From Mycolicibacterium boenickei (GTDB taxonomy: Bacteria > Actinomycetota > Actinomycetes > Mycobacteriales > Mycobacteriaceae): a stretch of 64,000 nucleotides of DNA. This document shows, piece by piece, positions 33,460 through 47,754 of the stretch. Both the position numbers and the translations under genes were made by a program. Location: positions 4,774,001-4,838,000 of the forward strand of contig NZ_AP022579.1 of NCBI RefSeq assembly GCF_010731295.1, in the 5' to 3' direction. Below the pieces are notes generated by a model, which saw nothing but the letters and a program-made list of their open reading frames with translations, did not search any database and had not been told where the DNA came from. Every line of letters starts with the position of its first letter. Within the stretch, counting starts at the first letter, position 1.

Positions 33460-36066
33460 TCAGCGGTGCCGTCGAGGCAGGAGCGCGATCAGCTCGGCCC
33501 GGGTGGATACCCCGGTTTTCGCCATGGCGCGGTAGATGTGTCCCTCGACGGTGCGCACGGACAACCGCAACCGCTCGGCGATGGCCCGGCTGGACAGCCC
33601 CGCGCCGATCAGCATGGCGATCTCGCGTTCCCGGTCGGTCAACGGCAGGCGTTCCGCGGCGGCGAGCAGCGCGGGCGTGGCCGCACCGCCGCAGGACTCC
33701 CCCAGCGCGGTGGCTCTGGCCGCCGACGCCATCGCCGAGCCGCGCATGTCTTTGCGGCGGTACGCCGCGGCCGCCAAACCCGCTGCGTCAGCCGCCGCCA
33801 CCAGATCTCCGAAATTCTCGAATTCGATTGAGACCGTTGCCAACCCATCTCCGTCGTCGCGGGCGAGGGCACGTGACAGCGCGGCGGCGGCACGAACCCG
33901 CGGCCCCTCGACCAGACCGGTCAGCTCGTCGAGCCGGTGTGTGCGTGAATGGTCACCGAACTGCGCCGCGATCTGTAGGCACCACCCTTCGGCGGCCAGT
34001 TGCCCGTTGGCCCCGGCGGTGTCGGCCGCGGCGTGCGCGATCTCGACGGCCTCGGATACCGCGCCCTGGGTCGCGGCGACCCAGGCCCGGACCAGCGTGT
34101 GCTCGTAGGCGAGATAGCGCCAGCTGGCGTGGCGGCATTCGTCGAGTTCGGCCAGGGCGGTGTCGCCTGCGAGACCCCGGATGGCAAGTGCGGTGACCCG
34201 GGGCAGGTGAAAGCGGTAGCCGAACCCGTTTGTCTCCCCGGCGGCCCGCATCATCTCGACCGCCGGATCCAACAGTTCGGCCGCGGCTCCGAGGGCGCCG
34301 GCGCCTGCGGCGGCACGACCTGCCAGTGCGGCAGCGAACAGTGGTGCCGCGCCGGGCCGCTCGGCGGCTCGCCGGCTCAGCTGCTCGGCCTCCTCACGCG
34401 CCTCACGGATCCGCCCGGCCAGCAGCAACGCACCGATGTGGGCGTCGGCGATGACGAATCGGGTGTGCGCCGCATCAAACGAATTGTCCGTGATGCGATA
34501 CCCGGCGTGCGCCGCCGTGACGGCCTCGTCGGCGCGGCCGGCATCACCACCCGATGCGGCCACCGCCCATGCGGTCACCGCCCCCACGATGGCGGGCAGA
34601 GCGTCCAGATCCAGTCCGTCGGAAGCTGCGCCGGCCCGTTCAGGATCGCCCATCGCAGCCCAGTACACGGTGTAGAACGCGTCGATGGCGGCACGGGACT
34701 CTGCCGGGATGCCGACCGCCGCATCGTCGATGTGCCGCTTGGCGCCCGTCGGGTCGGCGAGCGACCACAGCATGTTCGAGGCCCGCAGGAACGCCAGCCG
34801 GGCCCGCCCGTCGTCGGTGAGCTCGGAGGTGTCGATGGCGTCGAGCACGGCGTCCGATTCCTCGCCCCGGCTGAGCCACGACAAGGCATGAGCTCGGATG
34901 AATTTCGCCTCCGCGTCCGCGCCCGCCGCGATTGCCCCCTGCGCCAGCCGGTCGGCCAGGGCCAGATCGGACAACCACACCGCGCCCTGCGCGGCGCGGG
35001 TCAGCAACTCGGGATCGGGCGGTAGATCCGAGTCGAGCATCAGCGTGGCCCGCCGGACCACCACCCGCATGGCATCGCGGTCCTCCCGATCCCCGAGGGC
35101 GTTCGCCACCAGCCCCCGCAGCCGACGCAATCGAGAACCCGGCACCCGGTTGCGTCGCACCTCCGCGTACAGCGGATGGGCGACACGAACCTCGCGGTCG
35201 GCGGAATCGATGGTGATCAGCCCCCGCGACTCGGCGGCAGCCACTGAATCGGCATCGGTGATCGCGGTCAGCCGGTCCAACTGAATCGGCTCGGCCACCG
35301 CCAGGACATCGACGACTTCGCTCACTGCCGGCGGCAGCGCGCCGATCCGTGTCTCGATCAGTTCGACCAATCCGGGTGGCATCACCGGGTCTCCGGTCCA
35401 CTGCCAGGATCCGTCCCGGCAGGCAAGGCGGCCTTGAGCGACTTCCTGTTCGACGATGTTGCGCAGGTAGAGCACGTTGCCCCTGGTGAGGCGCCACAAC
35501 CGTTGCGCTGCATCGGCATCGAGAGGTCCACCGAGCGCGGCCGCCAGCAACTGGGCCGACTCGTCACGGGACAACGGCTGCAGGTCCAGCCGCTCGAACC
35601 GGCCACGGTCACAAGCCGTCAGCACCTCGGCCGGTACCGGCGTACCGGTACGCACTGTCAGCAGGAGCTTGGCGGCCCGGCGCTGCACGATCTGCTGCAA
35701 CACGAAACCCGACAGGCCATCGAGCAGGTGCGCGTCGTCGACACAGACCAGCACCGGCCGGCCGTCAGAAGTGGAGGTCAGGCCCTCGAGTACCCGGCCC
35801 ACCAGCGCCACGCTGTCGGCGTCCGAGGTTCCCACCCATCGCGCGAACGTCCCCAGCGGCAGGGCGCGGGCCGCTGATGTCCCGACCGTCCAGCGGGTTT
35901 CGTAGCCGTCGCCGCCCGCCGTCGAGAGCGCCTCACGGGCGATACGGCTCTTGCCGACCCCGGCGGTCCCGTAGATCACGATGCCGGACAGGTCGGTGGA
36001 GTCCAGCGCGGCGTCGATCAGCCGGGTCTCCTCCAACCGCCCCGTCAGCGGCCAAGCGAGTCGCAC
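33460..36066 (-). CDS. LAL-type LuxR regulator with AAA ATPase domain
   Basis: The 868-residue protein has an N-terminal ATPase with Walker A GTAGVGKS (33-40) and Walker B-like VLVCVDDAHLL. A long helical, TPR-like middle follows (about 330-790). The C-terminal LuxR helix-turn-helix (about 800-862) reads LTDREREIAMLIGAGLSSRAIAERLRLSVRTVEGHIY. These MalT-like proteins sense a ligand, bind ATP and activate nearby genes. The target is unknown; candidates are the small gene downstream and the DinB gene upstream. Confidence 0.92.
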   Translation of the reverse strand: MRLAWPLTGRLEETRLIDAALDSTDLSGIVIYGTAGVGKSRIAREALSTAGGDGYETRWTVGTSAARALPLGTFARWVGTSDADSVALVGRVLEGLTSTSDGRPVLVCVDDAHLLDGLSGFVLQQIVQRRAAKLLLTVRTGTPVPAEVLTACDRGRFERLDLQPLSRDESAQLLAAALGGPLDADAAQRLWRLTRGNVLYLRNIVEQEVAQGRLACRDGSWQWTGDPVMPPGLVELIETRIGALPPAVSEVVDVLAVAEPIQLDRLTAITDADSVAAAESRGLITIDSADREVRVAHPLYAEVRRNRVPGSRLRRLRGLVANALGDREDRDAMRVVVRRATLMLDSDLPPDPELLTRAAQGAVWLSDLALADRLAQGAIAAGADAEAKFIRAHALSWLSRGEESDAVLDAIDTSELTDDGRARLAFLRASNMLWSLADPTGAKRHIDDAAVGIPAESRAAIDAFYTVYWAAMGDPERAGAASDGLDLDALPAIVGAVTAWAVAASGGDAGRADEAVTAAHAGYRITDNSFDAAHTRFVIADAHIGALLLAGRIREAREEAEQLSRRAAERPGAAPLFAAALAGRAAAGAGALGAAAELLDPAVEMMRAAGETNGFGYRFHLPRVTALAIRGLAGDTALAELDECRHASWRYLAYEHTLVRAWVAATQGAVSEAVEIAHAAADTAGANGQLAAEGWCLQIAAQFGDHSRTHRLDELTGLVEGPRVRAAAALSRALARDDGDGLATVSIEFENFGDLVAAADAAGLAAAAYRRKDMRGSAMASAARATALGESCGGAATPALLAAAERLPLTDREREIAMLIGAGLSSRAIAERLRLSVRTVEGHIYRAMAKTGVSTRAELIALLPRRHR

Positions 36067-36153: not shown

Positions 36154-36648
36154 TCAGCGGCCCGTCGTCCCGTCGATCAGTTCGCGCAGAATGTCGGCGT
36201 GACCAGCGTGGCGGCCGGTCTCTTCGATCATGTGGGTGAGCGCCCAGCGGACAGTGGGCGCGGACCGTCCCGAAGGCGACCGGGGAACCGGCGCCCCGAG
36301 GTCGGTACAGCCGTCGAGCACCTCGTTGGCGCGCTCGACGGCGTCCCGGTAGCGGGCCACCACATCGGCAACGGCGTCCGACGGGTCGACCGTGAATGTC
36401 GCCGGCCAGTCGGTGACGTCGTCACCGAGAAAAATCCACCGTTCGACGTTGGTCAGGTGATTCAGCAGGCCGAGCAGCGTTGTGCCCGATGGCACCGGCG
36501 ACGACCGGGCCATCGGTTCGGGCGCACCGTCGACCTTCGCGGCGATCGATGTGCGGAGGTAATCGAGAAACCCCCGGAGAACCTCGGTTTCGGTGTTCGC
36601 GGTCCGCGGCGGCGGATTATCGTGCCTCCTGCGCTGGTCTGTGTGCAC
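36154..36648 (-). CDS. DinB-fold (DUF664) protein
   Basis: The 164-residue four-helix protein has the DinB metal-type histidines: NHLTNVERW (His near 63), and THMIEETGRHAGHADILRELIDG near the C-terminus. In actinobacteria such proteins include mycothiol-dependent transferases and isomerases. The exact reaction cannot be named. GTG start at 36648. It ends 87 bp before the LuxR regulator starts. Confidence 0.88.
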   Translation of the reverse strand: MHTDQRRRHDNPPPRTANTETEVLRGFLDYLRTSIAAKVDGAPEPMARSSPVPSGTTLLGLLNHLTNVERWIFLGDDVTDWPATFTVDPSDAVADVVARYRDAVERANEVLDGCTDLGAPVPRSPSGRSAPTVRWALTHMIEETGRHAGHADILRELIDGTTGR

Positions 36649-36711: not shown

Positions 36712-39399
36712 TCAGCCGGCGAGGGCCTGGCGCGCATACGCCCGGACGTCGGCGTCACTGTCCTCCAGCGCCACGGTCAGGGCCTGCCGCGCGGTCGATT
36801 CCGAATTCGCCCACCGGCTCAGGCTCAGCACCGCGGCCTTGCGCACGTCGAGATGCTGGTCGTCGAGCGCCCGCGTCAGGGTAGGTACCGCCACCTCCGG
36901 AAGGGCCCCGGCCAACGCCCGGGCTGCGCCCTGACGGATCTGCCAGGCCGACTCGGTGAACGCCTTCTCGACGCTGACCACGTCGTCGTCGGTGCAGCCG
37001 ACGGCGCCGAGCGAAGCCAGGGCCGCCGCCCGGACCAGCGGGTCGGGGTCGTCCAGGGCCACGCGCACCGCATCGGCACCGGCGCGCAGGGTGGCCAGCC
37101 CACCGACCGCGGCGATCCGCACTTCCCGGTTCTCGTCGGAGGTGGCGGCCGCGACCCCGGCGTCGTCGTCGACGGACACGAGGGCCCGGACCGCCTCGAT
37201 CCGTACCCGGTGGTCGGCATCGGTCGATGCCACCCGGTACGCCTGGCCGTTGCCGACGCGTCGGGAGCTCAGCAGATACACCGTGACGGCCCGCACCACC
37301 GGGTCTGCGGAGTGCAGTCGGTCGGCGAAAGCCTCCGGATCGGGAAGGACCTCGACGAGTTCACGTACCGCGTCAGCGGTTTCGCGCCGCACTCCGGCGT
37401 CGTCGTCGGCCAATGCGGCCACCAGCGCGGGTTGGTAGCCGTCGGGCAGATGCTCGACGAGGGTGGCGACCGCGGTTCGGCGCACGCCGGCATCCGCATC
37501 GGCCAGGTAGGCGCTCAGATCCTCCAGTGCGGGCTCCTCCAGTGCCAGGACCGCGGCGATACGCGGTGACGGAGGCTGCCCGGACCCGGCGTCGCGGACC
37601 CTGGAGCGTTCGGCGGCGGGCGCGCGGCCCCCGTGCAGGTGAGGCTGTTCGACGGCGGTCACCGGGTCTTGCGAAGTCAGATGGTCCAGCTCTGGCACCG
37701 CGACGAAATACGGTGCCACCGGCCGCTTCACGAACTTCATCGCCCCGTCGGCGTCCTTGTAGAGGTTGAGGTGATAGCGCCATTGCGCATCGTCGCGCTC
37801 CGGCAGGTCAGCCCGTTCGTGGTACAGCCCCCAGCGTGATTCGGTCCGGGTCAGCGAGGAACGGGCGGCCATCTCCGCGCAGTCTCGGATGAAGGACACC
37901 TCTGCCGCACGCATCAACTCGTGCGGTGTGCGCGCCCCGATGCCCTCGACCTCGGTCGCCATCCGCTCGAAGGTCTGCACTGCGATCGACAGCTTGGTGG
38001 CGGTCTTCGGCGGTGCCACATAGTCGTTGACGAACCGCCGCAGCTTGAATTCGACCTGCGGTTGCGGCGGGCCGTCCGGGTGGCGCAGCGGACGGTAGAT
38101 GAGCTCGTGCGCGTCGGCCACCTGGTCGGCCGGAAGGTCAACCGGTGCAGCCACGTCCGAAAGGGTCGACGCGGCATGTTCGCCGGCGAGATCACCGTAG
38201 ACGAAGGCGCCGATCATGTAGTTGTGCGGCACACACGCCAGGTCCCCGGCCGCATACAGTCCGGGAACCGTGGTGCGGGCATGCTCGTCCACCCACACCC
38301 CGGATGCGGAATGACCTGAGCACAAACCGATCTCGGAGATGTGCATCTCGATATCGTGGGTGCGGTAGTCGTGCCCGCGATTGGCGTGGAACGTTCCCCG
38401 GGTGGGTCGTTCCGTGGTGTGCAGGATGTTCTCCAGGGTGGTCAGCGTTTCATCCGGCAGATGGCTGACCTTCAGGTAGATCGGCCCCCTGGCGGATTCG
38501 ATCTCCTCCTTGACCTCGGCCATCATCTGACCCGACCAGTAGTCGGAGTCGACGAACCGCTCCCCCAACGCATTGACCTGGTATCCGCCGAATGGGTTGG
38601 CCACATACGCACACGCCGGACCGTTGTAGTCCTTGATCAGCGGATTGACCTGGAAGCACTCGATTCCGGATAGCTCGGCCCCGGCGTGGTAGGCCATGGC
38701 GTAGCCGTCACCGGCGTTGGTGGGGTTCTCATAGGTGCCGTACAGATACCCCGAGGCGGGCAGCCCAAGGCGGCCGCAGGCACCCGTGGACAGGATCACG
38801 GCCTTGGCCGCCACGGTGACGAATTCCCCGGTGCGGGTGTTGAATGCGGCCGCACCAACGGCCCTTCCGCCTTGGGTCAGCACGCGCACCGGCATGAACC
38901 GGTTCTCGATGCGGATCTTCTCGCGCATCGAGCGTTGCCGCAGCACCCGATACAGCGCCTTCTTGACGTCCTTGCCCTCTGGCATCGGCAGCACGTAGGA
39001 GCCGGAGCGGTGCACGCGCCGCACGGCATACTCACCGTGCTCGTCCTTCTCGAACTTCACGCCGTACCGTTCCAGCCGCTGCACCATGGCGAATCCACGG
39101 GTCGCGGTTTGATAGACGGTGCGCTGGTTGACGATTCCGTCGTTGGCCCGGGTGATCTCGGCGACGTAGTCCTCGGGCTCGGCCTTGCCGGGGATGACGG
39201 CGTTGTTGACGCCGTCCATGCCCATCGCCAACGCACCGGAATGCCGCACGTGGGCCTTCTCCAGCAGCAGCACCTGGGCACCGTTCTCGGCGGCGGTCAA
39301 CGCCGCCATCGTGCCCGCGGTGCCGCCGCCGATCACCAGTACGTCGCAGTCGATCCGGATCGCGTTTGAAACATCGGGAATCTCGGTCAGTTCGGTCAT
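36712..39399 (-). CDS. AprA/FrdA-like flavoprotein fused to HEAT repeats
   Basis: The 895-residue protein has an FAD motif GGGTAG (24-29) with Glu47. The fumarate-reductase/adenylylsulfate-reductase flavoprotein fold extends to about 600, with the FAD loop LYAAGDLA (381-388). A probable active-site stretch is IGLCSGHSASGVW (357-369). Residues about 622-895 form HEAT-type repeats rich in VRxxAVxAL. The flavoprotein part resembles AprA more than SdhA because it pairs with an 8-Cys ferredoxin and lacks a membrane partner. Substrate unknown. The HEAT part may bind the ferredoxin or the transporter (inference). Last gene of a coupled operon; ATG overlaps the ATPase stop. Confidence 0.9.
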   Translation of the reverse strand: MTELTEIPDVSNAIRIDCDVLVIGGGTAGTMAALTAAENGAQVLLLEKAHVRHSGALAMGMDGVNNAVIPGKAEPEDYVAEITRANDGIVNQRTVYQTATRGFAMVQRLERYGVKFEKDEHGEYAVRRVHRSGSYVLPMPEGKDVKKALYRVLRQRSMREKIRIENRFMPVRVLTQGGRAVGAAAFNTRTGEFVTVAAKAVILSTGACGRLGLPASGYLYGTYENPTNAGDGYAMAYHAGAELSGIECFQVNPLIKDYNGPACAYVANPFGGYQVNALGERFVDSDYWSGQMMAEVKEEIESARGPIYLKVSHLPDETLTTLENILHTTERPTRGTFHANRGHDYRTHDIEMHISEIGLCSGHSASGVWVDEHARTTVPGLYAAGDLACVPHNYMIGAFVYGDLAGEHAASTLSDVAAPVDLPADQVADAHELIYRPLRHPDGPPQPQVEFKLRRFVNDYVAPPKTATKLSIAVQTFERMATEVEGIGARTPHELMRAAEVSFIRDCAEMAARSSLTRTESRWGLYHERADLPERDDAQWRYHLNLYKDADGAMKFVKRPVAPYFVAVPELDHLTSQDPVTAVEQPHLHGGRAPAAERSRVRDAGSGQPPSPRIAAVLALEEPALEDLSAYLADADAGVRRTAVATLVEHLPDGYQPALVAALADDDAGVRRETADAVRELVEVLPDPEAFADRLHSADPVVRAVTVYLLSSRRVGNGQAYRVASTDADHRVRIEAVRALVSVDDDAGVAAATSDENREVRIAAVGGLATLRAGADAVRVALDDPDPLVRAAALASLGAVGCTDDDVVSVEKAFTESAWQIRQGAARALAGALPEVAVPTLTRALDDQHLDVRKAAVLSLSRWANSESTARQALTVALEDSDADVRAYARQALAG

Positions 39400-40151
39400 C
39401 GTTGCTCCAGGGCGGCAATGATCTCGGCGCGCAGCGCGGATCGTTCGGGATGGTCGGTTCTGGGCTGGGCCACCTCGATCAGGGCACGTAACGGCTGTCC
39501 GGCGCGACCGAGCACCGCAACGCGGTCACCGAGGGTGAGGGCTTCATCGACGTCGTGGGTGACGAACACGATCGTCGTCGGATGCGCGCGCCAGGTGTCG
39601 ATCAACAGCCGCTGCATGGCCGCCCGGGTCTGGGTGTCCAGCGCGGCGAACGGCTCGTCCATCATCACCGCACGCGGTGCACCGGCCAGGCCGCGGGCCA
39701 GCTGCACCCGCTGCCGCATGCCGCCGGACAGGTTCTTCGGCAGGAAGTCGGCGAACCCGGCCAGTCCGACCTCGTCGATCCAGCGATCCGCCCGCTCGCG
39801 ACGCGTCGCTTTCGGCTCGCCGCGCAACTGCAGGGCCAGTTCGATATTGGACCGCACCGTGCGCCACGGCAGCAGCGCGCTGTCCTGGAACACCATGCCG
39901 CGGTCGCGCGAGGTGGTGGTGACCGGGTCACCGTCGGCCAGCACCCGGCCACCGTCGGGTCGCAGCAGTCCGGTCAACGCACGCAACAACGTGGACTTGC
40001 CGCAGCCCGACGGACCGGTGAGCACCAGGATCTCACCTGGCTCGACGGTGAGGCTCAGGTTGTCGATCACCGGAGCACCGGTGTAGGACAACCGGATTCG
40101 GTCAAGTTCCAATCTCATCCCGGAGGCGGTGGCGGTCGCGGTGGGACTCAT
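39396..40151 (-). CDS. ABC transporter ATPase (nitrate/sulfonate/taurine type)
   Basis: The 251-residue ATPase shows Walker A GPSGCGKST, Q-loop MVFQDSALLPW, signature LSGGMRQR, Walker B AVMMDEPF and the H-loop THD. It resembles the SsuB/TauB/NrtD group. It is coupled by ATGA overlaps to the permease before it and the flavoprotein after it, and powers the uptake system of this operon. Confidence 0.95.
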   Translation of the reverse strand: MSPTATATASGMRLELDRIRLSYTGAPVIDNLSLTVEPGEILVLTGPSGCGKSTLLRALTGLLRPDGGRVLADGDPVTTTSRDRGMVFQDSALLPWRTVRSNIELALQLRGEPKATRRERADRWIDEVGLAGFADFLPKNLSGGMRQRVQLARGLAGAPRAVMMDEPFAALDTQTRAAMQRLLIDTWRAHPTTIVFVTHDVDEALTLGDRVAVLGRAGQPLRALIEVAQPRTDHPERSALRAEIIAALEQR

Positions 40152-41008
40152 CGCGTCGACTCCTCACCACGCGGCAGCCAGCGGGTGGCCCGGCGGCCGA
40201 TCAGTTCGACCGCCGCGGCGGTCACGAAACCGAGGACACCGATCGTGATGATGCCGACGAACACGTCGGGATAGTTCAGCACCGTGTACGCCTGCCAGGT
40301 GCGATAGCCCACACCGAGACGGCCCGAGATCATCTCGGCCGAGACCACGCAGATCCAGGCCACTCCCATGCCGACCGAGAGCCCGCCGAACAGCCCGGGC
40401 AGGATGCCGGGGAGGACGACCTGGCGCAGCACGTCGAGGCGACCGCCACCGAGGGTGCGCACCGAGTCCTCCCAGATGGTCGGCAAGGCGCGCACCGCAT
40501 GCCGGACGCTGACCATGATCGGGAAATAGGCGGCCAGGAACGTGATGAACACGATTCCCGCCTCGTCGCTGGGGAACAGCAGGATCGCCACCGGCACCAT
40601 GGCGATCGCCGGGATCGGCCGGGCCAGTTCGGTGAGCGGGCCGAAGATGTCGGCGAACAAGGCGGTGCGCCCCAACAGGATTCCGGTGATCACGCCGACG
40701 ACCGCGGCGATCCCGAACCCGGTGAGAATCCGGATCAGCGACTGACCGAGATCCAGCCAGTACTCCGGTGCGCCCAGCCGATTAACCAGGGCGGCGGTGA
40801 TCTCGGTGACCGTGGGCAGGGTGTCGAACCGTAGGCCCAGTCGCACGTCGTTCGCGGTCAGCAACTGCCACAGGACGATTGCGCTGACCACCGACGCCAG
40901 CCGGACCAGACGATGCGGCCAGACCGAAGGCGCGGGCCGGGCGCGCTCGGTCTCGGGTACGGCTGAGAGTTCGGTGGCCGTGACCGGGACGGCGTCGGTG
41001 GTGGTCAT
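40148..41008 (-). CDS. ABC transporter permease (SsuC/TauC type)
   Basis: The 286-residue protein has six predicted helices. The EAA-like coupling loop is WEDSVRTLGGGRLDVLRQVVLPGILPGLFGG, near 185-215. The start at ATG 41008 follows from the ATGA overlap with the binding-protein gene; the upstream frame to 41161 is a shadow. Acidic and Pro-rich residues 1-35 precede the first helix. Confidence 0.94.
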   Translation of the reverse strand: MTTTDAVPVTATELSAVPETERARPAPSVWPHRLVRLASVVSAIVLWQLLTANDVRLGLRFDTLPTVTEITAALVNRLGAPEYWLDLGQSLIRILTGFGIAAVVGVITGILLGRTALFADIFGPLTELARPIPAIAMVPVAILLFPSDEAGIVFITFLAAYFPIMVSVRHAVRALPTIWEDSVRTLGGGRLDVLRQVVLPGILPGLFGGLSVGMGVAWICVVSAEMISGRLGVGYRTWQAYTVLNYPDVFVGIITIGVLGFVTAAAVELIGRRATRWLPRGEESTR

Positions 41009-42435
41009 ACCGCACCCGCCAACGCTTGCCGGTAGTCCACGATCGCGGCGCCGGGATGCGCGGCGGTGTAGCGTTCGGCGCCGGCCTGGGTGCCGAACGG
41101 AAGGTATCCCTCGGCGCCGCCTGCGGGCAGGCGCACCCACACGGACTTGTCGGCGAACCACCGGGTGCCGAACTCGGCGTCGGAGATGTAGGCGGCGCGG
41201 ATTTTCTTGCCGTCCCCTTCAGCCTGGCGGATCGCCTTGAGCAGGCAGACCGGCGTGGCGGCCGCGGTGGTGGTGTCCGATCCGTCGAGCCAGAGTTCGC
41301 CTGCGGTGGCGGGATTGTCGACGGCGGTCTGGCACACCGGGTCGGTGCCGCTCAACGCCGAAGGGTTGGCGCTCGAGTTCAGCGCCTTGTCGTAATCCTG
41401 GCCGCGAGCGGAGTACGCGGCCCGCAGCGGACCGTCCTGCACGAAACCGGCCACGTCGAGGTCGGCAAAGTTGTCGATCGACTTCAGATAGGGCACATCG
41501 CCTTTGAGCGCGGCTACCAGCGAAGGCTTGAGCGTGGTGTCGAACGAGGTGCCGCCCGGCCCGTTGTAGAGGTAGACGACCTCCTGCGGCAGACCGCTGC
41601 CCTCGGCCACCACGCGGGCCGCCTCCAACGGCTTGGTGTTGAGGAAATCGGTGGCATCCAGCTGCGCCTGGAGGAACGCGTCGAGCACCTCCGGGTGCTC
41701 AGCCGCATACGCCCTGCGCACCACCACGCCGTGCAAGGTCGGGTAGTTCAGTTCGGCCCCGTCGTACAACAGCTTGGCCTTGCCCTGATGGACCAGCAGG
41801 CCCGGCCAGGCCACGAACTGCGAAAGCGCCTGGACCTGACCGGATTCCAGCGCGGAAGCACCGACCTGAGGTTGCTGGTTGAGCACCTCCACACCGGTCT
41901 TGGCATCGACGCCGGCCTTGCCGAGGGCCTGCACCAGCATGCCGTGGCCCGCCGAACCGACGCTCGCCGAGACCTTCTTTCCCGCCAGATCGGTCAACGA
42001 CTTGGCCGGCGAATCAGGTGCCACCACAACCATGTTCAGCGCGCCCTTCGGGTTGTACCCGGTGACCGAAACGATCTCGGTCTTGGCGCGTTCGTTGGCC
42101 TGGGTCTTGGATCCGTTGATGAGCATCGGGTAGTCGCCCATCGAGCCGATGTCGATCTTCTCCGCCACCATCTGCGCGGTGATCGGGGCGCCGGTGTCAT
42201 AGTCCTGCCACGTCACGTTGTACTTGGTGCCGGTGCGGGTGGTGATGTCGGCCAGCCGGCGTTCCAGATACCCCTGGGCGCGCAGCAACGTGCCTGCGGT
42301 GACGGTGTTGATGGTCTTGGACTGGTAGCCGACGACGACGTCGACAGTGTCGGCAGACTTCGTCGCCGAATCGAGAGAGCATCCGGCCGCGGCGAGGGTC
42401 AGACCGGCGGTCAGGGCGATCAGGGCTGTTTTCAC
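41005..42435 (-). CDS. Solute-binding lipoprotein with NosL-like C-terminal domain
   Basis: The 476-residue protein has a lipoprotein signal ending LAAAGC (Cys19). The SsuA/NMT1-type binding domain (about 32-350) includes IDIGSMGDYPMLINGSK and GAGHGML-like sequence. The last 110 residues are not part of such proteins. They read DPVCQTAVDNP, a second PVCLLKAI, AAYISDAEFGTRWFADKSVW and GYLPFGTQAGAERYTAAHPG. This layout follows NosL, a metal-binding accessory domain. The two cysteines (368, 397) could bind metal. The fusion suggests the ligand contains, or is handled with, a metal (inference). GTG start. Confidence 0.88.
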   Translation of the reverse strand: MKTALIALTAGLTLAAAGCSLDSATKSADTVDVVVGYQSKTINTVTAGTLLRAQGYLERRLADITTRTGTKYNVTWQDYDTGAPITAQMVAEKIDIGSMGDYPMLINGSKTQANERAKTEIVSVTGYNPKGALNMVVVAPDSPAKSLTDLAGKKVSASVGSAGHGMLVQALGKAGVDAKTGVEVLNQQPQVGASALESGQVQALSQFVAWPGLLVHQGKAKLLYDGAELNYPTLHGVVVRRAYAAEHPEVLDAFLQAQLDATDFLNTKPLEAARVVAEGSGLPQEVVYLYNGPGGTSFDTTLKPSLVAALKGDVPYLKSIDNFADLDVAGFVQDGPLRAAYSARGQDYDKALNSSANPSALSGTDPVCQTAVDNPATAGELWLDGSDTTTAAATPVCLLKAIRQAEGDGKKIRAAYISDAEFGTRWFADKSVWVRLPAGGAEGYLPFGTQAGAERYTAAHPGAAIVDYRQALAGAV

Positions 42436-42444
42436 TTGGGTCCT

Positions 42445-42672
42445 CTAGCGGATGAGGTAGGGCATGTTGACGGTGACGGCGCCGGTGGGACAGCGGGCCG
42501 CACACGGGCCGCAGTACCAGCACTCGTCGACATGCATGAAGGCCTTGCCGTTGGCGGGGTTGATGGCCAGCGAATCGAGCGGACACACGTCGACGCACAA
42601 TGTGCAGCCCTCGATACACAGGGACTCGTCGATGGTCACCGGGACATCGGCGCGTTGATTGACCAGCGTCAT
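42445..42672 (-). CDS. Two-cluster 4Fe-4S ferredoxin (AprB-like)
   Basis: The 75-residue protein has eight cysteines for two [4Fe-4S] clusters: C19-x3-C23-x2-C26-x3-C30 and C51-x2-C54-x2-C57-x3-C61. The first has an unusual CxxxC spacing. The CWYCGPC stretch resembles the beta subunit of adenylylsulfate reductase. It most likely passes electrons to or from the flavoprotein of the same operon. The start overlaps the GntR stop as ATGA. Confidence 0.92.
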   Translation of the reverse strand: MTLVNQRADVPVTIDESLCIEGCTLCVDVCPLDSLAINPANGKAFMHVDECWYCGPCAARCPTGAVTVNMPYLIR

Positions 42673-43424
42673 GCATCTCTCCTAGTGAGGTTGCCGCGCA
42701 TGGTGATTCGATCACCACGCATCCTGATGTACTCCAGGTCGACGGGCGTACCGTCGTCCAGACTCGTGAGCCGTTCGGCCATCAGCAGTGCCGATCCGGC
42801 CGGCACCTGCAGCGTCGCGGCGGTATGGGGATCGGCCGAGACGGCCTCCAACGCAAGGCTCGCCCCGCCCAGGCGGTGCCCGCTGACCCGTTCGATGAGC
42901 GCGAAGATGTCGTTGCTCTCCAGCGCGTGACCGATGACCTGCTCGCCGATCTCGGGGGCCAGGTACGTCAGATCCAGCGACAGCGGTAGATCGGCGAGAT
43001 AGCGCAGTCTCTCGATGAACACCACCTGGGCGCCTGGTTCGAGGGCGAGCTTGCGGGCGACCGCGGGCGGGGCCGAGAGCCGCTGCACGGCACGGACTTC
43101 GTTGCGGACGTCGCCGTAGTCCTTGAAGGTCTCCTTCAGCCCCACCAACGCGTCGAGACCGTGGTCGTACTTGCGGGCCGCCACATGCGTGCCCACCTTG
43201 GTGCCGCGGTCGATCAGGCCTTCGGTCTTTAGGACGGCAAGCGCTTCCCGGATGGTGTTGCGGGACACGAAGAACTCGGCGGCCAACTCCGCCTCCGGCG
43301 GTAGGGCGCCGGCATACGTGCCCTCGTAGATCTGATGACGCAGCACATCGGCCACCTGGCGGGCCTGATCGGCACGCGCGCGGCGACTCGGCAGCGATAC
43401 GGGATGAGCTTCGGGCTGCGACAC
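42669..43424 (-). CDS. GntR/HutC-family regulator
   Basis: The 251-residue protein has an N-terminal winged helix (about 20-85, PPEAELAAEFFVSRNTIREAL) and a C-terminal UTRA ligand domain (about 100-245). It is the first gene of the transport/redox operon, so it probably represses its own promoter and releases on binding the imported compound or a product. GTG 43424 has no Shine-Dalgarno but a fitting leaderless -10. Confidence 0.93.
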   Translation of the reverse strand: MSQPEAHPVSLPSRRARADQARQVADVLRHQIYEGTYAGALPPEAELAAEFFVSRNTIREALAVLKTEGLIDRGTKVGTHVAARKYDHGLDALVGLKETFKDYGDVRNEVRAVQRLSAPPAVARKLALEPGAQVVFIERLRYLADLPLSLDLTYLAPEIGEQVIGHALESNDIFALIERVSGHRLGGASLALEAVSADPHTAATLQVPAGSALLMAERLTSLDDGTPVDLEYIRMRGDRITMRGNLTRRDA

Positions 43425-43446: not shown

Positions 43447-43671
43447 CAGGGCCGTCGCAGTGCGGCCGATACGCCGTCGACGCAGGTTAACCGATTGCGC
43501 CGCCGACCAAAGTGCCGTACCTGGCGAAACCGCCGCACCGGCCGGTATTACGCCACCTCGGCCCGGACCAGAATTTACAAATCGCGATGATCGAAACTCG
43601 TTGCGCCGGCTGCAAAAAACTTTGGCCTCTTTGGCCTCTCCAGTCACAATCTGAGGATTCTTGTCAGCGTG

Positions 43672-45278: not shown

Positions 45279-45429
45279 CTCACCGCTAGATCGTCGTGTG
45301 GCTGAGCCCCATTGGCCGCACTCCTCAACGCGGCTCGTCCCTCACCGCTAGATCGTCGTGCGGCTGAGCCCCATTGGCCGCACTCCTCAACGCGGCTCGT
45401 CCCTCACCGCTAGATCGTCGTGCGGCTGA
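45279..45429. repeat. 62-bp tandem repeat, 2.4 copies, at the 3' end of the oxidoreductase gene
   Basis: Units begin at 45279, 45341 and 45403, each with CTCACCGCTAGATCGTCGTG. Units 1 and 2 differ at one base; unit 3 stops after 27 bases, inside the coding end of the molybdoenzyme. Each unit repeats the final codons and stop of that gene. Confidence 0.93.
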
Positions 45430-47659
45430 CCGTCACCGGGATGCCATTGAGCGCACCGTTCCCCGACGGCTCGTCGATGAAGTCGGGCAGAGACAAGATG
45501 TTGGTGTTGACCCCGGGCGACGCGTTCGCGACACCGAGCCGTGTGCCGGGCAGGCCGTGGCCCCAGCCGTGGGGCATCGACACCACCCCGAGCTTGATCG
45601 CGTCGGTCACCTCGACCGGCACCACGATCGTCCCGGCCCCCGAGGCCACCTCCGCGTTGTCGCCGTCGGCGATTCCCCGCGATGCGGCATCCTGACTGTG
45701 CATCAGCAGCGTGCATCGGTCGCGCCCCTTCATCAGGGAGCCGACGTTGTGGAGCCAGGAGTTGTTGGACCGCAGGTGCCGCCGGCTCACCAACACCAAT
45801 TCGTCGGGGGCCCGGTCGAGCCGCTCGGCCAGCCGTGGCAGGTCGTCGAGCAGATACTGCGGCGCCAGCCGGATCTTCTGGTCGGCGGTACCCAGCACCT
45901 CGGGAACGCGGGGCACCATGGGGCCGAAGTTGATTCCGTCCGGATGGGCCTTGAGCTTGTCCAGCGTCAGGCCGTCGGGGTTCTCACCGTAGCGGTCGCC
46001 GAACGCGGCGGTCCGTAGCGTCAGATCGAGCATGCGTTCCGGTCCGCCGTGATCGTAGTGCTTACGGATCTCGGCACCGTCGAGCCCTTGGGTGAAGCAC
46101 AGGTAGTCGAACCAACCGTCGTCGAGCGCGGCGATGTCGACGTCCTCGGCCGGAGTGCCGGTGCACAACCCGGTCAGCCGGATGAGGATCTCCCACTCCT
46201 CCGGCGCCTCGGGATCCTCACGATGGAACACCGGCGGCGAGTACCGGGCAAAGCTGTTGATCGCCGCACCCAGCAACAGGTCCGCGGAGTGCGGCTGCTC
46301 CAGAGCCGAGGCACCGGGCAGGATGACGTCGGCGTGCCGGGTGGTCTCGTTGAGCCACAGATCTACCGAGATCATCGCCTCCAGCTGCGGCAGCGCCTCG
46401 TCGAGCTTGTCGCCGCCGGGAGTGGACAGCACCGGGTTGCCTGCCACCGTGATCAGGGCCTTGATCTGCCCTTCGCCGGGGGTGGTGATCTCTTCGAGCA
46501 TGCAGGACACCGGCACCTGCCCGAGTACCTCCTTGGCCCCGCGGACCCGGGTGCGGTACCGGCCGAAATTCGGCGCGCCGTCCTCCAGTCCTGGGATCGG
46601 CTGGCCGGTGATCGTCCATGCCGTCGGGGTGGCGAACATGGCGCCGCCGGCAGTGTCGAAGTGTCCGGTGACGATGTTGACCACATCCACCAGCCAGCTG
46701 GCCAGGCTGCCGAACTCCTGGTTACAGGTGCCGATCCGGCCGTAGACCACCGCACGCTGGGTACCGGCCAGTTCGCGGGCCAGCCCACGAATCCGCTCGG
46801 CGTCGATACCCGTTGCGGCAGAGACTCTTTCGGGCGACCATTCGACCACCGTCTGCCGCAGCGTCGACACCCCGTCGAGGTGGCGTTCCAAATCGCCGAG
46901 GTTGACCAGTCCCTCGTCGAACACGGTGTGGATGATTCCGAGCAACAGCGCAGCGTCGGTGCCGGGTGTGATCGGCAACCATTCGTCGGCCTTGGCGGCG
47001 GTCGCGGTGCGCACCGGGTCGATGACGATCACCTTGCCGCGCTTACGGATACCGGAGATGATGCCCATCACGTCGGGGGCGGCCAACAGCGAACCCTGCG
47101 AAGCCGCGGGGTTGGCGCCCATCACCACGAGCAGGTCGGTGCGCTGGATGTCCGGCGTCGGGAAGGCCCACCAACTGCCGTACATCAGGTGCGACGACAG
47201 GTTCTTGGGCCACTGGTCGATCGTTCCCGGCGAGTAGGTGATCGGCATGCCCGACAGGCCCAGCAGGATCGCCGAGTAGCGGGACAGCGAAAACGAGTGC
47301 GCCAGCGGATTTCCGGTGTACGCGGAGACCGCGCCGATGCCGTACTTCTCGATGACGGGTGCGAGCAGTTCGGTGCAACGCCGGAACGCGGTGTCCCAGT
47401 CGACCTCGTGCCACTGGCCGTCCACCTTGATCATCGGCCGGCGGATCCGGTCGGGATCGTCGTGCAGCGCGGCCAGCGACGCACCCTTCGGACAGATGTG
47501 CCCCGCACTCCACTCGTCGGACTTGTTCGGCCGAACGCTCGCCACCTTGCCGCCGGCGACCTGGATCTCCAAGCCGCACATGGCCTCACACAGCGGGCAG
47601 GCATGCAGATGCAGGCCGTCCTCGCCGACGTCCGCGATACTTCTCGGCTCGTGTCCCAT
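45410..47659 (-). CDS. Molybdopterin-dependent oxidoreductase (formate dehydrogenase/BisC-like)
   Basis: The 749-residue protein has a [4Fe-4S] motif C21-x2-C24-x3-C28-x27-C56, a molybdopterin core, and a C-terminal dinucleotide-binding domain (about 625-745). In the place of the metal-binding Cys/Sec/Ser the sequence reads TYSPGTIDQWPKN, so the ligand could not be assigned and the reaction stays open. No signal peptide is seen. ATG 47659 has GGAGG seven bases upstream; the frame to 47698 adds 13 unconserved residues. The 3' end lies in a tandem repeat. Confidence 0.9.
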   Translation of the reverse strand: MGHEPRSIADVGEDGLHLHACPLCEAMCGLEIQVAGGKVASVRPNKSDEWSAGHICPKGASLAALHDDPDRIRRPMIKVDGQWHEVDWDTAFRRCTELLAPVIEKYGIGAVSAYTGNPLAHSFSLSRYSAILLGLSGMPITYSPGTIDQWPKNLSSHLMYGSWWAFPTPDIQRTDLLVVMGANPAASQGSLLAAPDVMGIISGIRKRGKVIVIDPVRTATAAKADEWLPITPGTDAALLLGIIHTVFDEGLVNLGDLERHLDGVSTLRQTVVEWSPERVSAATGIDAERIRGLARELAGTQRAVVYGRIGTCNQEFGSLASWLVDVVNIVTGHFDTAGGAMFATPTAWTITGQPIPGLEDGAPNFGRYRTRVRGAKEVLGQVPVSCMLEEITTPGEGQIKALITVAGNPVLSTPGGDKLDEALPQLEAMISVDLWLNETTRHADVILPGASALEQPHSADLLLGAAINSFARYSPPVFHREDPEAPEEWEILIRLTGLCTGTPAEDVDIAALDDGWFDYLCFTQGLDGAEIRKHYDHGGPERMLDLTLRTAAFGDRYGENPDGLTLDKLKAHPDGINFGPMVPRVPEVLGTADQKIRLAPQYLLDDLPRLAERLDRAPDELVLVSRRHLRSNNSWLHNVGSLMKGRDRCTLLMHSQDAASRGIADGDNAEVASGAGTIVVPVEVTDAIKLGVVSMPHGWGHGLPGTRLGVANASPGVNTNILSLPDFIDEPSGNGALNGIPVTVSRTTI

Positions 47660-47754
47660 CAGCGGCCTCCGGATGTCGGTGCGGGTGTCACCCCACACGT
47701 AACAACATCGTGACGCCGAACGGCACCGATGGTCCCGATGTCCGGGACGCTTCC

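Follow-up and report, generated by a model that had tools for sequence, protein, structure and literature searches.

We examined a 64,000-nt window of the Mycolicibacterium boenickei genome (NZ_AP022579.1, 4,774,001 to 4,838,000), whose positions serve as coordinates throughout, and describe an operon of six minus-strand open reading frames (ORFs) spanning 36712–43424. The genes encode, in order, a GntR regulator, a ferredoxin, a binding lipoprotein, the permease and ATPase of an ATP-binding cassette (ABC) importer, and a flavoprotein fused to HEAT repeats. Four junctions are ATGA overlaps, namely GntR/ferredoxin (42669–42672), lipoprotein/permease (41005–41008), permease/ATPase (40148–40151), and ATPase/flavoprotein (39396–39399), and a 9-bp gap (42436–42444) separates the ferredoxin and lipoprotein genes. 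The initial annotation of this DNA had reported the same six-gene set with four overlaps and one gap, which re-reading the junctions from the sequence confirmed. The permease is read from the ATG at 41008, and the ORF list also offers an earlier GTG at 41161. The operon comprises the following features:

42669..43424, minus strand: GntR/UTRA transcription regulator, 251 aa (PF00392, PF07702); first gene in 16/16 actinobacterial loci
42445..42672, minus strand: ferredoxin, 75 aa, with two 4Fe-4S motifs and a C-W-x-C motif (Fer4 families, 4Fe-4S dicluster)
41005..42435, minus strand: substrate-binding lipoprotein, 476 aa (NMT1/SsuA family), with a lipobox-like AAGC; mean predicted local distance difference test (pLDDT) of the model 85.1
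41419..42354, minus strand: SsuA/TauA-fold domain of the lipoprotein, about residues 28–339
41008..41358, minus strand: NosL-like C-terminal domain of the lipoprotein, about residues 360–476 (PF05573)
40148..41008, minus strand: ABC permease, ATG start (PF00528, BPD_transp_1)
39396..40151, minus strand: ABC ATPase, 251 aa (PF00005, ABC_tran); best NCBIfam model a taurine ATPase, below cut-off
37660..39399, minus strand: flavin adenine dinucleotide (FAD) part of the flavoprotein, about residues 1–580 (PF00890, FAD_binding_2; PF02910, Succ_DH_flav_C); best solved relative 3′-phosphoadenosine 5′-phosphosulfate (PAPS) reductase alpha, 8a8o
36712..37566, minus strand: HEAT-repeat part of the flavoprotein, about residues 612–895 (PF13646); helical repeats with high pLDDT in the model

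Judged by sequence comparison, this is a genuine operon and a widely conserved one. All six genes stand in the same order in each of 16 actinobacterial stretches from other genomes (10 of the same genus, two of the same family, and four from one genus of another family), and a Tsukamurella plasmid carries that order too; the arrangement is therefore more than chance. This supports the operon of the initial annotation as a conserved one. The frame from the flavin part to the end of the HEAT repeats is uninterrupted in 15 of the 16 stretches; a stop splits the operon flavoprotein in one Mycobacterium-level relative (L139, G031:C1). The window flavoprotein is 98% identical to a protein named for Mycolicibacterium porcinum and 96% identical to that of M. 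septicum. Occurrence of the flavoprotein-HEAT fusion is patchy, with scores over cut-off in 14 of 61 relatives' genomes and in 12 of 396 genomes drawn from the phylum, the M. boenickei genome being counted in both.

The module is present in Actinomycetota, Alpha-, Beta-, and Gammaproteobacteria, Acidithiobacillus, and Cyanobacteriota, with HEAT encoded by a separate gene in proteobacteria and cyanobacteria. A tblastn search of plasmid records returned 213 records with the window protein as query, most of them partial and below 60% identity, and 49 records with a Cupriavidus protein as query (E up to 1e-120). Annotated relatives keep flavoprotein, ferredoxin, and HEAT genes together; most of them add ABC genes, a GntR or Crp/Fnr regulator, and either DUF971 or, for the cyanobacteria, an Mrp/NBP35 ATPase. 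A scan of genome contigs gave at least 587 passing stretches, the best 80 of which form our proteobacterial sample; since stretches were ranked by the first query, Pseudomonas and Burkholderiales predominate among them. Together with eight plasmid loci, four short mycobacterial stretches, and the window, they make a set of 93 loci, in which tblastn detected the flavoprotein in 93, HEAT in 90, ferredoxin in 89, GntR in 80, DUF971 in 69, ATPase in 68, permease in 64, and binding protein in 62, with cut-offs that vary by family and with the four mycobacterial stretches, at 5.7 kb, too short to show all genes. HEAT is thus a recurring core gene of the module (90/93 loci).

The redox core of the operon is AprAB-like. 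The flavoprotein scores over the cut-off of NCBIfam NF010374 (PRK13800) across its full length, with 1701 bits, and over that of the HEAT-less NF006131 (PRK08275), with 879 bits. Its nearest solved proteins are the alpha subunit of PAPS reductase from Methanothermococcus thermolithotrophicus (MtPAPSR), followed by AprA, the adenosine 5′-phosphosulfate (APS) reductase flavoprotein, from Archaeoglobus. In a 17-row tree the flavoprotein family groups with AprA and MtPAPSR (support 97/96) rather than with SdhA or AsfA; this tree contains long branches, its AprA row lacks residues 295–427, and it omits L107 (wrong ORF) as well as L110 and L102 (long branches). A first tree also placed the family, AprA, and PAPS reductase in one group, together with L107 (91/85). 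Forcing the family onto AsfA costs 9.25 log units (approximately unbiased test, p-AU 0.02). The resemblance of the redox pair to AprAB, proposed in the initial annotation, is accordingly matched by the tree.

Six APS reductase positions were followed through the alignment, Asn74, Arg265, Lys267, Asp268, Arg317, and His398, with numbering and roles that we take to be those of the known enzyme. The equivalents of Asn74, Lys267, Asp268, and His398 are each conserved in 10 of 10 aligned family members. Arg265, a catalytic/substrate residue, and Arg317 hold the sulfate/phosphate end of the substrate in APS reductase. The position of Arg265 is Leu in all ten members and Arg in both reductases (AprA and MtPAPSR), and the Arg317 equivalent is R in two, K in three, N in four, and G in one; the equivalents of Arg317 and His398 were placed on MtPAPSR. 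On these changes we reject an APS or PAPS reductase proper as the identity of the flavoprotein. An identity as fumarate reductase or succinate dehydrogenase was likewise rejected, because SdhA Arg286, His242, and Arg399 are kept in none of the ten rows. We read the flavoprotein as one of the APS-reductase type that has lost the APS site. MtPAPSR itself retains the residues proposed to be catalytic in APS reductases, according to an excerpt of PMC10322725.

The ferredoxin carries C-W-x-C in all 13 aligned family members. By the alignment end points, and provided that all gaps precede it, this Trp would correspond to Trp42 of the MtPAPSR beta subunit, which lies between cluster and FAD. Trp42 has been proposed as an electron carrier (excerpt of PMC10322725). 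The structural model of the flavoprotein has a mean pLDDT of 69.1 with a poor FAD part, and only its HEAT part was used. A search for FlpD in the M. boenickei genome led nowhere.

The importer belongs to the sulfonate/nitrate/taurine group, as initially annotated, and the fold of its binding protein favors the sulfonate/taurine type: SsuA and TauA are the best matches to the model. The SsuA_fam score of the binding protein is 129, below the cut-off of 163.5, and the NCBIfam models nearest to the permease and ATPase are taurine, nitrate, and sulfonate transporters, with all best transporter models below their cut-offs. The lipoprotein is also an unusual fusion, in which a sulfonate-type binding protein is joined to a NosL-like C-terminal domain (41008–41358). 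PF05573 (NosL) is the best family for this segment in 10 of 10 sequences (E 1.6e-6 to 0.09) and passes the Pfam cut-off in two of them, the window segment scoring 17.0 bits against a cut-off of 24; among 32 whole binding proteins, NosL matches 17 at E up to 10. The copper ligands of NosL are Cys, Met, and His, and no invariant or near-invariant Cys, Met, or His occurs in the ten aligned NosL-like segments. The fold search of the binding protein, which barely tested the C-terminal part, listed no NosL chain. The binding-protein alignment omits two sequences with stops in the matched stretch.

The closest described system is asfRABC. Besides a LysR regulator, it comprises a binding protein, an ABC transporter, and a reductase/ferredoxin system, and asfA mutants of Pseudomonas putida S-313 lost the use of aromatic, not aliphatic, sulfonates (both from a partial text of PMC4267179). 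In Cupriavidus metallidurans CH34, AsfA/AsfB correspond to Rmet_4334/5, and a homologue of NuoF is encoded by Rmet_4300 (partial text of PMC2864759). On the CH34 megaplasmid, a gene for a 549-aa flavoprotein overlaps a two-cluster ferredoxin gene 31–32 predicted genes after a NuoF-like gene, and genes predicted to encode a binding protein, an ATPase, and a permease lie nearby; by this gene counting, we take the pair as AsfA/AsfB. The megaplasmid record holds no close member of the operon's flavoprotein family, the chromosome lying outside that search, and none of the best 120 homologues listed bears an AsfA label. M. boenickei also has an asf-like locus (G000:C1:2522252-2523781; L106, L140), with permease and ATPase genes before the flavoprotein and a ferredoxin gene after it. 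The asf-like flavoprotein is 50% identical to that of CH34. A single genome thus contains two gene sets built alike, and the operon flavoprotein shares 25% identity with the asf-like protein of this genome. Orthology of the operon to asf was rejected on this 25% identity and on the p-AU of 0.02 against the AsfA grouping; we retain asf as an analogue. No description of the present gene set or its substrate was found among the open-licence papers searched, in keeping with the initial annotation, which knew of no described pathway. A system of an analogous kind is described in asfRABC, and NCBIfam has models of the flavoprotein both with and without HEAT.

We predict, with somewhat better than even confidence, that the operon, built around an AprAB-like redox core, scavenges organosulfur. 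The lipoprotein and its SsuA/TauA-type ABC importer would take up an organosulfur anion of small size, a sulfonate or a related compound being the likeliest. In the cytosol, the FAD protein and its own two-cluster ferredoxin would form an AprAB-like complex, for which the HEAT part may act as scaffold or docking surface, and this complex would, at its flavin, donate electrons to the substrate or accept them from it. Sulfur would then leave the substrate, most simply as sulfite for assimilation, and the GntR/UTRA protein would sense a ligand and control the operon. The analysis establishes the gene set with its order and spread, the flavoprotein clade, the loss of Arg265, the C-W-x-C motif, the sulfonate-binder fold, and the sulfur genes near some relatives; we infer an organosulfur substrate, a sulfite product, the direction of electron flow, the HEAT role, and the regulator ligand. 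The reading is supported by the six-gene order in 16/16 actinobacterial loci, by the grouping of the flavoprotein with APS/PAPS reductase and its four conserved positions, by the C-W-x-C ferredoxin, and by the closeness of the binding protein to SsuA and TauA. It is also supported by asf, an analogous set of importer, flavoprotein, and ferredoxin, which serves aromatic sulfonates according to a portion of PMC4267179. A more specific version, which we hold tentatively and think somewhat unlikely, is that the flavoprotein is a second, oxygen-tolerant descendant of APS/PAPS reductase. This enzyme would carry out ferredoxin-driven, reductive sulfite release from an organic sulfur compound without an oxygenase, using a dedicated importer with a NosL-derived domain and a HEAT scaffold, in aerobic bacteria and cyanobacteria.

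Sulfur genes accompany part of the relatives and lend support to the initial suggestion that an organosulfur substrate is a fair guess. TauE/SafE genes lie within loci of Rhizobium, Pseudanabaena, Leptolyngbya, and Aquabacterium, and YeiH-type exporter genes at those of Pseudanabaena and Leptolyngbya. Among the 80 proteobacterial loci, at least one gene of a sulfur panel is found in 24: family 2A encapsulin in seven, its cysteine desulfurase cargo in six, CysE in six, rhodanese in five, TauD-like in six, sulfate-binding in six, DmoA-type in five, SsuA-type in four, and MetQ-type in four. The encapsulin loci are L043, L049, L054, L068, L084, L086, and L088, with the cargo gene and CysE in six of the seven.

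Several observations weigh against the sulfur-scavenging proposal. With Arg265 lost and Arg317 variable, sulfur chemistry cannot be read from the active site, and binders of nitrate and of bicarbonate share the binding-protein fold as well, with Z only slightly lower. No sulfur-panel gene is present in 56 of the 80 proteobacterial loci, and queries with TauE, YeiH, SelO, and mercaptopropionate dioxygenase matched none of them, the TauE result being the adverse one. The panel was itself chosen from recurring neighbours of the same or related loci, and a comparison set of other neighbours, with matches in 57 of 80 loci (a single ABC ATPase query accounting for 56, and the remaining control queries giving two matches), is no fair control for the panel counts. 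Finally, HEAT follows the ferredoxin directly, with no ABC trio between them, in at least 26 of the 80 loci, a lower bound because the count passed over any locus in which ferredoxin or HEAT had not been detected; import and redox functions are therefore separable.

These points bear on what else the operon might do. An imported compound other than an organosulfur, such as another small oxyanion or a carboxylate or aromatic that the flavoprotein would oxidize or reduce, is unlikely in our estimation: the NitT/TauT binders do include nitrate, bicarbonate, and thiamine-precursor proteins, and the missing panel genes and the unkept Arg residues of APS reductase fit such a substrate, but the fold is closest to SsuA and TauA and sulfur genes lie near relatives. 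We think it similarly improbable that the flavoprotein and ferredoxin are a mere electron-transfer pair for an oxygenase encoded elsewhere, with oxygenolytic cleavage of the substrate, as the literature proposes for AsfA/AsfB. Although DmoA-type monooxygenase genes occur near 5/80 loci and TauD-like genes near 6/80, no oxygenase gene recurs in the operon; moreover, the flavoprotein is not AsfA (25% identity; 9.25 log units and p-AU 0.02 against that grouping) and groups with enzymes that perform the chemistry themselves. That the flavoprotein is a fumarate reductase or succinate dehydrogenase as named, or a true APS/PAPS reductase, standing beside an unrelated importer, is very improbable. The NCBIfam name and superfamily membership speak for it, but the SdhA residues are not kept, Arg265 is replaced by Leu throughout, and the importer lies inside the operon in 16/16 actinobacterial loci.

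Two short elements lie upstream of the GntR gene:

43547..43554, minus strand: first GGCGYAAT copy, GGCGTAAT, candidate operator/promoter element, one of paired copies
43494..43501, minus strand: second GGCGYAAT copy, GGCGCAAT, candidate operator/promoter element, one of paired copies

The GGCGYAAT pair, with copies 53–55 nt apart, is found upstream of GntR in 11 of 13 Mycobacteriaceae-level loci, the window included, and occurs once in the M. boenickei genome (reversed control 0). Of 79 proteobacterial loci, 71 (among L003 and most of L009–L088) carry a palindrome, ACTTGTYATRACAAGT, just upstream of GntR with no more than two mismatches, a figure that is not independent because the pattern was derived from 78 of those loci; as a control, 1410 windows, each 220 bp long and drawn from these loci, gave none. 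The best match to ACTTGTYATRACAAGT in the window has five mismatches. Both the pair and the palindrome are candidate operators only. Simple scans found no promoter or terminator for the operon. In two cyanobacterial relatives a LysR gene adjoins the module; the long LysR-type proteins beside the flavoprotein there measure 666 and 678 aa (L095:7676-9676, L096:7388-9424), and a large part of the L096 protein after the LysR domains has no family assignment.

Downstream of the operon, the MST (36154–36648) and LuxR (33460–36066) genes have no match in the 16 other actinobacterial stretches and were excluded from the operon for this reason. Elsewhere in the window, 45410–47698 encodes a molybdopterin oxidoreductase of 762 aa that falls under every NCBIfam cut-off among the models shown. 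On the Acidithiobacillus caldus plasmid pTcM1 (L094:6361-14035), GntR, flavoprotein, ferredoxin, and HEAT genes are followed by FdxA and a 1153-aa FAD oxidoreductase. On the Tsukamurella plasmid, the operon is followed downstream by nucleotidyltransferase, ThiF-type, Mov34, and SAVED genes (L001:15272-19558), which presumably resemble a CBASS-type defence set.

Organic forms account for more than 95% of the sulfur in soil, and oxygenase systems are credited with freeing it from sulfonates, according to a portion of PMC4267179. By joining a sulfonate-type importer to a flavoprotein that resembles APS reductase, the module offers a concrete and testable candidate for another sulfur-release route. 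The operon flavoprotein belongs to NF010374/NF006131 by score, yet these families carry a generic name and the fumarate/succinate residues are absent, so that 'fumarate reductase/succinate dehydrogenase flavoprotein' is a misleading label. Compared with SsuABC/TauABC, the binding-protein fold is shared and the permease and ATPase models are nearest to taurine, nitrate, and sulfonate transporters, whereas all best transporter models stay below cut-off and the lipoprotein has the NosL-like domain in addition. Like asfRABC, as far as the partial text of PMC4267179 describes it, the operon unites an ABC importer, a binding protein, an FAD flavoprotein, and a 4Fe-4S ferredoxin in one locus. Its flavoprotein sits on another branch, only 25% identical, its ferredoxin has C-W-x-C where both asf-like pairs have C-Q-x-C, its regulator is GntR/UTRA instead of LysR, and the HEAT part and NosL-like domain are its own. 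With AprAB and MtPAPSR it shares the pairing of a flavoprotein with a two-cluster ferredoxin, membership of one clade, and the Asn74 and His398 equivalents; it differs in the Leu at Arg265, in the variable Arg317 equivalent, and in being tied to an importer, HEAT, and GntR.

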